A program made the position numbers and the translations under genes. A DNA stretch of 38,861 nucleotides from Chthonomonadales bacterium (lineage in GTDB: Bacteria > Armatimonadota > Chthonomonadetes > Chthonomonadales > CAJBBX01), in assembly GCA_027459625.1 (NCBI GenBank), contig DAIDHP010000008.1, positions 1 through 38,861 on the forward strand, in the 5' to 3' direction. Below the pieces are notes generated by a model. It saw nothing but the letters and a program-made list of their open reading frames with translations. It ran no database searches and had not been told where the DNA came from. Numbering within the stretch: the first letter of the stretch is position 1; every line of letters begins with the position of its first letter. This document shows, piece by piece, positions 29,253 to 32,558 of the stretch.

Positions 29253-31079
29253 ATGAAAATAATTTCAAAAGTCATTATAGCGTTTGCGATGTTGTCCATC
29301 CTGAAATGTGGAACGGTTTCCGCACAGGCGGTTCCCGCCGCAAACACATCGACTAGATCAAAACTTGTCACTTTGGACTATGTGAATGCGGACGTGACGG
29401 ATATATTAAGAGCGATATCTACTCAAAGCGGTGCTAACATCGCCATAAGTCCGAATGCGAAGGGACAGATAACGATTCACTTGCGGGATAAAACCGTGGA
29501 TGAGGCTGTGCATTTTGTGGCGAATATGGCGGGGTTGGGTGCGCGCAAGATAAATGACACCTATGTCATCGCACCCAGATCCGATATGCGTCAGACTCTC
29601 GCACGTTTGGGAGCCCCCCAAATGGTGCCTTTGGCGCATTTAAGCCCAAAAGACGCAGCGGATCTCATTACGAACGCATTTCCTGATGTCACCGCTCGTC
29701 CGCAGGGGAACGCGGTGGAACTAATAGGAACAACCAATGATCTCGCACAAGCTATTCAGTTACTGCAACAGAACGACGCCATTACCATGGAGAGCGAACA
29801 CATCGTGGAAAAGGTGGCGCTGAAAAACATAGCCGCCAAGGATGCCGCGGACGCCATCGTTAAAATGACGCCGGGGATCACCGCTCAACCTGCAGGCGAT
29901 TCGCTTGTTCTTTCCGGTACTCGAGCCGATATCAACGCCGCAAAGAAGGGGTTGGAGTTGATTGACGTGTCAAGCCAACCCGATAGCGAAGTGGAGGTAT
30001 ACAACATCAAATATGCCTCCCCCGTTGACCTGGCAAATATCATCAAGAAAACCTTCCCGGACGTGAATGTGGTATCCGGGCCGGACAGCAACGCACCTTC
30101 GAATCCCATACTTAACACGATCAATGGCACCGGAACCAGCGGAATGGATTCGTCAATGGGGAATGGGCAATCTTCCAATAACCAAGGTTCAGGTGGGGGC
30201 TCCTCTTCGAATCAGTCACAGCAATACAATCAGCAATCAGGGTTCCCTGGAGCCGCTTCCAACGGCAAGCAGGTCAACCCGCGAGCGCTGTCGCTGCTAT
30301 TGCAAGGCAATCCCGATGAAGTAAAGCAGGCGATCAAAGTTCTGGCAATGGTGGATGTGCCTCCGCAACAGATGTTGATTGATGCGAAGGTCGTGGAAAC
30401 GAATCCCGAACTCGTTAATAACATTGGGGTTCAATGGTCATGGAATCCATTCCAGTTCGTGGAGAGACCAGGAGTGAGCGGAAACGCCGTTCCTAACGCC
30501 TCATCCTCCTCATCCTCCTCATCCTCAACATTGCCGGTGATGAACTCATTGGGTTTTGGAAGCTTTGGACGAACGCAGTTCACTCCAAGCGCAACCTTAA
30601 ATCTGCTTATCCAAAAGAATGAGGCGAAAATGCTCGCGAACCCCTCCATCACGGTTTTGGATGATCAAAACGCCTCGGTATTCATTGGAGATACGTTGCG
30701 CTATCAGGTGGAAACGTCCGGAATTAACGGTCCTACCATTCAGGTTTTTCAGGTGCCAGTCGGTATTATTCTCCTGGTGCATCCGAAGATCAATACCGAT
30801 GGATATATCACAATGAACATCCATCCCGAGGTTAGCACCGCCACGATGGTTAACAACCTGCCACAAACACATACGAGAGAGGCTTCCACCGTGGTGAGAG
30901 TCAAGGATGGCGATACGTTGGTAATTGGCGGATTAATTAGCGATCAAGACATCCGACAAATGTCCAAGATACCGTTGCTGGGCGATCTGCCAATCATTGG
31001 CAGGCTCTTCAGGAATTACTCGCGGGATCATACTCATGACGAAGTGATGATCTTCTTAACCATCCACATAGTGCATTAA
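29253..31079 (+). CDS. pilQ: Type IV pilus secretin (PilQ/GspD family)
   Basis: The secretin forms the outer-membrane pore for the pilus. The 608-residue protein has a signal peptide (to about residue 25, ending TVSAQA), an STN-type N0 domain (YVNADVTDILRAISTQ), two or three N-domain repeats (about 115-345), a Ser/Gln/Asn-rich linker, and the C-terminal secretin domain with VIGGLISDQD and IPLLGDLPIIGRLFRN, both diagnostic. There is no AMIN domain as seen in many PilQ proteins, so it looks closer to a short GspD. GAGGTG precedes the ATG. It is separated from pilO by 237 nt, in which no gene is credible. Confidence 0.92.
   Translation: MKIISKVIIAFAMLSILKCGTVSAQAVPAANTSTRSKLVTLDYVNADVTDILRAISTQSGANIAISPNAKGQITIHLRDKTVDEAVHFVANMAGLGARKINDTYVIAPRSDMRQTLARLGAPQMVPLAHLSPKDAADLITNAFPDVTARPQGNAVELIGTTNDLAQAIQLLQQNDAITMESEHIVEKVALKNIAAKDAADAIVKMTPGITAQPAGDSLVLSGTRADINAAKKGLELIDVSSQPDSEVEVYNIKYASPVDLANIIKKTFPDVNVVSGPDSNAPSNPILNTINGTGTSGMDSSMGNGQSSNNQGSGGGSSSNQSQQYNQQSGFPGAASNGKQVNPRALSLLLQGNPDEVKQAIKVLAMVDVPPQQMLIDAKVVETNPELVNNIGVQWSWNPFQFVERPGVSGNAVPNASSSSSSSSSTLPVMNSLGFGSFGRTQFTPSATLNLLIQKNEAKMLANPSITVLDDQNASVFIGDTLRYQVETSGINGPTIQVFQVPVGIILLVHPKINTDGYITMNIHPEVSTATMVNNLPQTHTREASTVVRVKDGDTLVIGGLISDQDIRQMSKIPLLGDLPIIGRLFRNYSRDHTHDEVMIFLTIHIVH
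30501..30527 (+). repeat. Nine-base tandem repeat coding for a serine run in the secretin
   Basis: Three copies of TCATCCTCC (the last ending in A) code for nine serines between the N domains and the secretin core. The unit is a multiple of three, so copy-number change would lengthen or shorten the linker without a frameshift. Confidence 0.8.
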
Positions 31080-31111
31080 TGCGGTACATATCCGAATAAC
31101 GGAGCAAAGTC

Positions 31112-31852
31112 ATGAACTTTACAAACATAAACCCTGCAGATAGAACGAAGGTATTCGCCTTGATAGGCGGCATAGCGTTGGTGTTATTTCTTTTCATTCA
31201 TACTCTGATAGGGGTGTTAAAACCGAAAAAGCCTGCGCCATCGGTGATCAGCCAGCAGCAAAATTCGAGTGCGGTGCCCGCACCTCCAGCTCCGGCTCAA
31301 GTGGCATCAACGCAATCCGTTCCCTCGAACATGAGCGAATTGTCCGCGTTTCCATCCACCAAAGCGGAGTCGATCTCCAGCAAGTTGCATCAGAGTGACT
31401 TAGGTTTGGATGTGCACGACCCATTCAAGCCATTATACGGTACGGGCAAGGCCAATCAGTCTCAACCAGCCAAACCTAGCGCTCCTCCGGAGGTTTCTGT
31501 GACTCCCGCGAGTTCCGCAGGGATGACCCCGTTGCCTGCAATGGGAAGCGGCTCTGCTCCGCCCGCCGCCCTTCTTAATGAGAGCGGACCGACAGGAAAA
31601 CTTAGCACTGTTCCTGTAACTCCGCCCGCCCCACCCGAGCCGACAATCAAACTAATGGGAGTTGTGCAAGGGGACAGTTCCGTGGCGACAATCCAAGTTA
31701 ACAGCCAGACAATCAACGCTACTCCGGGACGAGCCCTTGCGAAAGGGTATCGATTGATAAGCGTGGGTAACGACGGTGTGCAAATAAGACATAATAGCTC
31801 CTTATTGCATTTGAATGTGGGGGATATAATCAATCCTCCATCCAGTAATTAA
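31112..31852 (+). CDS. PilP/GspC-like pilus or secretion protein
   Basis: The 246-residue protein has one N-terminal membrane helix (about residues 15-34), a long Pro/Ala/Ser-rich linker (about 36-170) containing DPFKPL, and a compact C-terminal domain (TIKLMGVVQG, ATIQVNSQTIN, GDIINPP). This is the HR/PilP beta domain that contacts the secretin N0 domain. GspC has the same helix-linker-HR build, while PilP is usually a lipoprotein. Here there is a helix and no lipobox, so it is closer to GspC in build. GGAG lies 8 nt before the ATG. It follows the secretin directly, whereas pilP usually precedes pilQ. Confidence 0.8.
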   Translation: MNFTNINPADRTKVFALIGGIALVLFLFIHTLIGVLKPKKPAPSVISQQQNSSAVPAPPAPAQVASTQSVPSNMSELSAFPSTKAESISSKLHQSDLGLDVHDPFKPLYGTGKANQSQPAKPSAPPEVSVTPASSAGMTPLPAMGSGSAPPAALLNESGPTGKLSTVPVTPPAPPEPTIKLMGVVQGDSSVATIQVNSQTINATPGRALAKGYRLISVGNDGVQIRHNSSLLHLNVGDIINPPSSN

Positions 31853-31858
31853 TCACAC

Positions 31859-31887
31859 GTGACAAATCGGAAGATTTGATTTATAAT
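31859..31887 (+). promoter_or_regulatory. Strong sigma-70 promoter upstream of the lipoprotein gene
   Basis: GTGACA (31859-31864, five of six) and TATAAT (31882-31887, perfect) are separated by 17 nt. Transcription would start near 31894. It lies just after the stop of the PilP/GspC-like gene. Confidence 0.65.
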
Positions 31888-31893
31888 ACAATT

Positions 31894-32041
31894 GAAGATG
31901 ATTGCACCGTTCATTTCGAGGTTCGGCTCACGACGAAAGATGTGCGTTCGAGATCAAGAAAGGAATGATGCATTCATCCGGATTTCAGGGAAGAGCCCTC
32001 CTCTTCCAGGCAATCGGCGCATGCTGATTGCCATTCTTTTT
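31894..32041 (+). ncRNA. Candidate small RNA or attenuated leader
   Basis: The predicted transcript from the promoter at 31859 would run about 148 nt through two adjacent hairpins (31989-32007 and 32009-32032) to a U tract at 32036-32040. This is the layout of a free-standing small RNA. Equally, it could be an attenuated leader of the lipoprotein gene that starts at 32069. The frame is also open here from 31892, but no ribosome binding site supports translation. No known RNA family is recognised. Confidence 0.35.
32009..32040 (+). terminator. Rho-independent terminator in the lipoprotein leader
   Basis: GGCAATCGGC (32009-32018) pairs with GCTGATTGCC (32023-32032) over ten positions with one G-U wobble and a GCAT loop, followed by ATTCTTTTT. 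It ends 28 nt before the lipoprotein start. It may end the pilus transcript, a small RNA, or act as an attenuator. Confidence 0.65.
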
Positions 32042-32068
32042 GATGAATTCATTGCGGAGGAACGGATA

Positions 32069-32452
32069 ATGCGCCGTCTTTGGGCGATAATGGCGTTAAG
32101 CGTCATTGCAATGGCTTTGGCGGGATGCGGGCATAGTCTTTCAGGCGCATACTCCATCCCCGCCCATCCGAATATTCGAATCACTTTTTCTTTCAACGGT
32201 ACGTACACCACCGATGTTTACGGGGATAAACGTAACGGAGTATATACATTGTACAAAGATGGAAAGACGGTTAGTCTCACACCGAAATCGAAATATAACG
32301 TCTCTACAAGCGAAGCCATTGAAAGCATATTCAACAAGAATCAGCCTTTTGAGGGCGTTGCGAAAAAGGCGTTCGATAACGTTACGTCCATAACTTTGGA
32401 GGATAAAGGCGACTCATTCTATATTCCGCCTTTGAAATTCATCAAGGAATAG
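32069..32452 (+). CDS. Small lipoprotein of unknown function
   Basis: The 127-residue protein has a lipoprotein signal peptide ending in the lipobox LAGC (Cys20), so it is expected to be lipid-anchored. ATG 32069 has GGAGG 8 nt upstream, which fixes the start. The frame is open to 31892 but that start falls at the predicted transcription start. The mature part has a beta-rich pattern (IRITFSFNGTYTTDVYGDKR, then NGVYTLYKDGKTVSL), similar to small secreted proteins whose strands report a stress-like threshold, but no family is recognised. It sits between the PilP/GspC-like gene and comEA. Confidence 0.75.
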   Translation: MRRLWAIMALSVIAMALAGCGHSLSGAYSIPAHPNIRITFSFNGTYTTDVYGDKRNGVYTLYKDGKTVSLTPKSKYNVSTSEAIESIFNKNQPFEGVAKKAFDNVTSITLEDKGDSFYIPPLKFIKE

Positions 32453-32558
32453 GCCACTAGGTATTATTGGATGATTTCGTAAAGCGCTCTCCATACGATC
32501 TATGTGCGTATTGGAATCCATGACGATCTCCGATTGGAGAAAGTGGGAGAGATTAAAA

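Follow-up and report, generated by a model that had tools for sequence, protein, structure and literature searches.

A promoter–terminator unit ahead of a lipoprotein gene in a Chthonomonadales bacterium as a possible terminator-attenuated leader

In the genome of a Chthonomonadales bacterium, a sigma-70-type promoter followed by an intrinsic terminator lies between the end of a secretin/pilus-type operon and a lipoprotein gene. This arrangement raises the question of what the unit does: an earlier note on this DNA had suggested that it is either a small RNA or a leader whose terminator has to be passed for the gene to be expressed. We analyzed the window, that is, the whole stretch of 38,861 nt, against two backgrounds. 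The genome background comprised 839 kb in 41 stretches, ~18% of the genome, with 626 genes predicted by a simple home-made gene caller. The comparison of relatives was made with two sequences only, the window and its genus mate G001 (contig JAJZOL010000044.1).

The locus and the promoter–terminator unit

The unit sits in the 216-nt gap that separates a PilP-like gene (31112–31852, + strand) from the lipoprotein gene (32069–32452, + strand). The PilP-like ORF is the last gene of the operon; it has no Pfam family of its own, and is named only by its position and its N-terminal anchor. Just upstream of it lies the secretin gene (29253–31079, + strand; Pfam Secretin, E 1.8e-43), while a ComEA-like gene with the Pfam domains HHH_3 and SLBB is found downstream of the lipoprotein gene. 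All four genes are on the + strand.

The lipoprotein gene encodes 127 amino acids, including a signal peptide with an LAGC lipobox. Its product is 96% identical in G001, and the two copies of the gene differ by 28 synonymous versus 5 nonsynonymous codon changes, which means that the gene is real. A Shine-Dalgarno region, GGAGG, at 32056–32060 (+ strand) is conserved in G001. The protein has no Pfam family, and its homologues are confined to the genus; elsewhere in the phylum, four genomes gave only weak matches to part of it. The genome G152 (locus L107) encodes a possible distant relative with 27% identity. The structure prediction is a run of beta strands in a low-confidence model (pLDDT 50).

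The promoter, GTGACA-N17-TATAAT (31859–31887, + strand), matches the consensus at 11 of 12 positions and begins 7 nt past the stop codon of the PilP-like gene; neither hexamer has a substitution in G001. The terminator (32009–32041, + strand) consists of a 10-bp stem at 32009–32032 with six G-C pairs and a GCAU loop, followed by the U-tract ATTCTTTTTG, and both stem-loop and U-tract are free of substitutions in G001. Transcription from the predicted start at ~31893/4 to the end of the T-run at ~32040/41 would yield a short transcript of ~148 nt (31894–32041, + strand), leaving ~28 nt to the ATG at 32069. The near-consensus promoter and the 148-nt unit with a strong terminator 28 nt before the lipoprotein start, both described in the earlier note, are thus where they had been placed.

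Motif counts around the unit prove nothing, as the 900 local bases contain one promoter and one terminator, and shuffled sequences are expected to contain 1.1 and 1.0, respectively. Hence, better controls were sought in the 839-kb sample. There, promoter matches of at least 10/12 occur at 0.49 per kb in intergenic regions versus 0.06 per kb within genes. This eightfold difference in density suggests that promoters of this sigma-70 type are in use by the bacterium. Intrinsic terminators appear to be few in this lineage: the sample holds only 34 intergenic ones with stems of at least 8 pairs. A same-strand gene precedes 28 of them, and six have a co-directional gene start at most 80 nt downstream; among the 34, the terminator considered here is the only one that combines such a gene start with a strong promoter upstream. 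Counting any promoter–terminator pair in one gap yields three to eight cases per 839 kb, depending on the cut-off, and the present pair is the closest to the following start codon. Judging by its conservation in G001, the intergenic enrichment of promoters and the rarity of the arrangement in the sample, the predicted unit is above chance.

Conservation and folding of the RNA

Among 291 genomes of the phylum, the element is carried only by the window genome and G001, in the same gene context. The two copies of the 216-nt gap differ by 22 substitutions and no indels (89% identity overall), and the substitutions are distributed unevenly, with 3 differences per 90 positions at 31979–32068 versus 14 per 86 at 31893–31978 (Fisher P 0.004). 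Fourfold-degenerate sites of the neighbouring genes are 70–83% identical between the two genomes. The identity of the 3' part, 31979–32068 (87/90, 97%), exceeds this level (binomial P 3e-8 at a rate of 0.75 and 6e-5 at 0.83), and so this part is, as judged from the alignment, clearly under constraint. The 5' part, 31893–31978, appears to evolve at about the fourfold-site rate, and is not clearly constrained. The 3' part includes a 57-nt identical run (31997–32053). Such runs are not unique to this gap, since longer ones are found at other junctions: 112 nt at 31068–31179, at the secretin/PilP-like junction, and 69 nt at 32486–32554, ahead of the ComEA-like gene.

The 153-nt RNA folds more stably than shuffled sequences in both species (z of –3.1 in the window, where the terminator accounts for much of the effect, and –2.3 in G001). 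The consensus fold comprises an irregular 5' hairpin, a 7-bp hairpin and the terminator. The long irregular 5' hairpin (approximately 31897–31977, + strand) is predicted in both species, and its region is ~84% identical, but it is doubtful. Covariation in the stems of relatives had been proposed as a check; with one relative, three pairs of the 5' hairpin had a compatible change on one side only, and no change was compensatory. When the 12 substitutions were placed randomly, the 5' hairpin folded equally well in 30% of trials, and in 11% of trials in the reverse direction (P 0.30 and 0.11). Hence, a conserved large 5' hairpin is not supported, as it has no compensatory change and is preserved no better than under random substitutions.

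The 7-bp hairpin, GGAAGAG-CCCUC-CUCUUCC (31989–32007, + strand), has an invariant stem, with a single loop change from C to U at 31996 in G001. Of the two hairpins named in the earlier note, the 7-bp one is where it had been placed, and the large one is unsupported by the comparison with G001. As the stems of the 7-bp hairpin and the terminator do not vary, covariation is uninformative for both of them, and an element present in only two species would not be decided by such a test in any case.

Known RNA families and candidate switches

At the gathering score, no Rfam family, whether riboswitch, T-box, 6S or other, matched the window; at relaxed thresholds, the sole matches, with E of 0.6 and 9, were to lncRNA models from animals and are attributable to chance. 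There was no match to 6S RNA anywhere in the genome, no paralogue of the RNA in the same genome and no match in viral contigs. A model of the RNA (R1), searched against the class (31 genomes) and the phylum (291 genomes), found only the two genus members and one chance match (E 0.73). The sequence is thus specific to this lineage and has no known relatives, though its layout is known from other bacteria.

The 7-bp hairpin may be extended by GAUU/AAUC to a conserved candidate antiterminator (31981–32015, + strand; inverted repeat I1) that would sequester the terminator 5' arm. In stepwise folding, the extended hairpin is present as long as the 3' arm of the terminator has yet to be transcribed. 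However, a random flank matches the extension in 23% of trials (P 0.23), i.e. at chance level, and the terminator fold is more stable than the extended form by 9 kcal/mol. We consider it quite improbable that the terminator is a lineage-specific switch, in which some factor would stabilise the extended hairpin at 31981–32015 against the terminator and thereby activate a lipoprotein gene that had been inserted downstream of the pilus/secretin operon. If true, this would be a new class of attenuators without known relatives.

Several known or conceivable switches were considered and rejected. The candidate resembles the ribonucleic antiterminators of the LicT/BglG type in that a hairpin lies just upstream of the terminator and its extended form would overlap the terminator 5' arm. 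Unlike in those systems, the extension here is at chance level, and the genome has no match to the CAT_RBD domain, the RNA-binding domain of LicT/BglG, in a search that detected the positive controls. Leaders recognised by ANTAR proteins have two hairpins with six-base loops, with A at position 1 and G at position 4; the loops here are CCCUC in the 7-bp hairpin and GCAU in the terminator. An alternative pairing of 31968–31978 with 32042–32052 is disrupted in G001. In addition, the lipoprotein gene begins with eight bases, AUGCGCCG (32069–32076), that are in both species exactly complementary (8/8) to 32015–32022, in the 5' arm and loop of the terminator. By our own estimate, the chance of such a pairing is several per cent over all octamers of the start region, and for this reason it was left out as evidence.

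Read-through of the terminator and alternative readings

We estimate at about one in two the probability that the region is a terminator-attenuated 5' leader of the lipoprotein gene. Transcription would start at ~31894 from the promoter at 31859–31887, and most transcripts would stop ~148 nt further on, at the terminator at 32009–32041. The lipoprotein gene, with its own ribosome-binding site and no recognisable promoter after the terminator, would be expressed only by polymerases reading through, and the leader would hold its expression low or make it conditional. Transcripts from the upstream secretin operon could be stopped at the same place, and the terminator may thus close that operon as well.

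The predicted dependence of the gene on read-through comes from the downstream side of the terminator. A scan limited to sigma-70-type promoters had no match between the terminator and the start codon (32010–32068). Since the 28 nt before the start codon contain no promoter match and are too short for a promoter and a leader, expression of the lipoprotein gene most probably requires read-through. We infer that both the promoter and the terminator are active and that the gene is expressed by way of read-through. The need for read-through suggested in the earlier note is thereby supported, while the choice that it left between the two roles cannot be made from sequence alone. The roles are not mutually exclusive, and the short product of the leader may additionally be a small RNA.

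Attenuators of this kind have been described among RNA 3' ends in 5' UTRs of Escherichia coli, where premature termination involves intrinsic terminators, and a stable short product acting as a small RNA has been reported for IspZ (PMC7815308). As in E. coli, a promoter is followed by a structured leader, an intrinsic terminator, a ribosome-binding site and the gene. Unlike the E. coli attenuators, the present candidate has no supported sensor domain, ligand, uORF or antiterminator.

We favour the attenuated leader because the promoter hexamers and the terminator are unchanged, because the constraint on the 3' part continues up to the start codon, and because no other promoter, terminator and gene are arranged in this way in 839 kb with 626 genes. 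Four points count against it. No structure that would relieve termination is supported, as the hairpin extension is at chance level and weaker than the terminator. The 5' part, where a sensor would be expected, barely exceeds fourfold sites in conservation. The fold predicted for the read-through RNA has both the ribosome-binding site and the start codon paired. Finally, strong terminators are found 22–76 nt after the stop of the PilP-like gene in three other genera (G003, G004 and G012; loci L046, L047 and L049) with no lipoprotein gene behind them, so read-through might be a leak of an operon terminator.

This last observation speaks for a plainer account, by which there is no regulation out of the ordinary: the terminator would end the secretin operon, the promoter would serve the lipoprotein gene, and leakiness of the terminator would set a low, fixed level of the protein. 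The lack of a supported switch structure agrees with it as well. However, the promoter stands before the terminator rather than after it, the sole such case in 839 kb, and its placement is unchanged in both species; we regard this account as unlikely. Alternatively, the secretin operon may have in its 3' region a separate promoter for a small RNA of ~148 nt that acts in trans and shares the operon terminator, with only incidental read-through into the lipoprotein gene; we consider this reading tentative and, on balance, rather unlikely. MicX offers a precedent: the promoter of this small RNA is located within an ORF, and the RNA spans the 3' UTR of that ORF (PMC9438474). As in the MicX type, the region has its own promoter where an operon ends, here 7 nt past the last stop codon, and shares with that operon an intrinsic terminator with a U-tract. 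Moreover, the 7-bp hairpin and the terminator are conserved, the genome encodes Hfq, and most sampled intergenic terminators (28/34) follow a same-strand gene. In contrast to the MicX type, a gene without another promoter lies 28 nt past the terminator, and the 5' part is poorly conserved: the first 86 nt change at about the fourfold-site rate, so that a conserved 5' seed could hardly be accommodated. Among the 291 genomes of the phylum, there is no copy outside the genus. Moreover, the conserved stretch continues beyond the terminator through the ribosome-binding site to the start codon, an extension for which a small RNA alone would have no use.

Control of termination by translation of the leader is very improbable. 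Two frames were considered, an almost leaderless ORF from ATG 31898 in the lipoprotein frame and a 19-codon ORF (31968–32027) with its stop inside the terminator. Both are open in both species, and the frame upstream of the lipoprotein gene is open for 63 codons in both. Yet in the long frame substitutions are spread evenly over the codon positions (51, 52 and 53 of 58 identical), and codon changes are synonymous in 6 cases and nonsynonymous in 8; in the short ORF, the counts are 0 and 3, respectively, as compared with 28 and 5 in the lipoprotein gene. Neither frame looks coding by these tests, and leader peptides are not supported.

If read-through of the attenuated leader controls the lipoprotein gene, the region would be a point of control at the RNA level, in a bacterial lineage that has been little studied; given the familiar layout and the confinement to one genus, the wider consequence would be modest.

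The search of the 839-kb sample also yielded three intergenic candidate small RNA genes. One, at L096 11753–11930 (– strand), combines a 12/12 promoter with a 14-bp terminator; another, at L098 14059–14179 (+ strand), has an 11/12 promoter and also a 14-bp terminator; the third, at L089 6636–6778 (– strand), has a 10/12 promoter and an 8-bp terminator.
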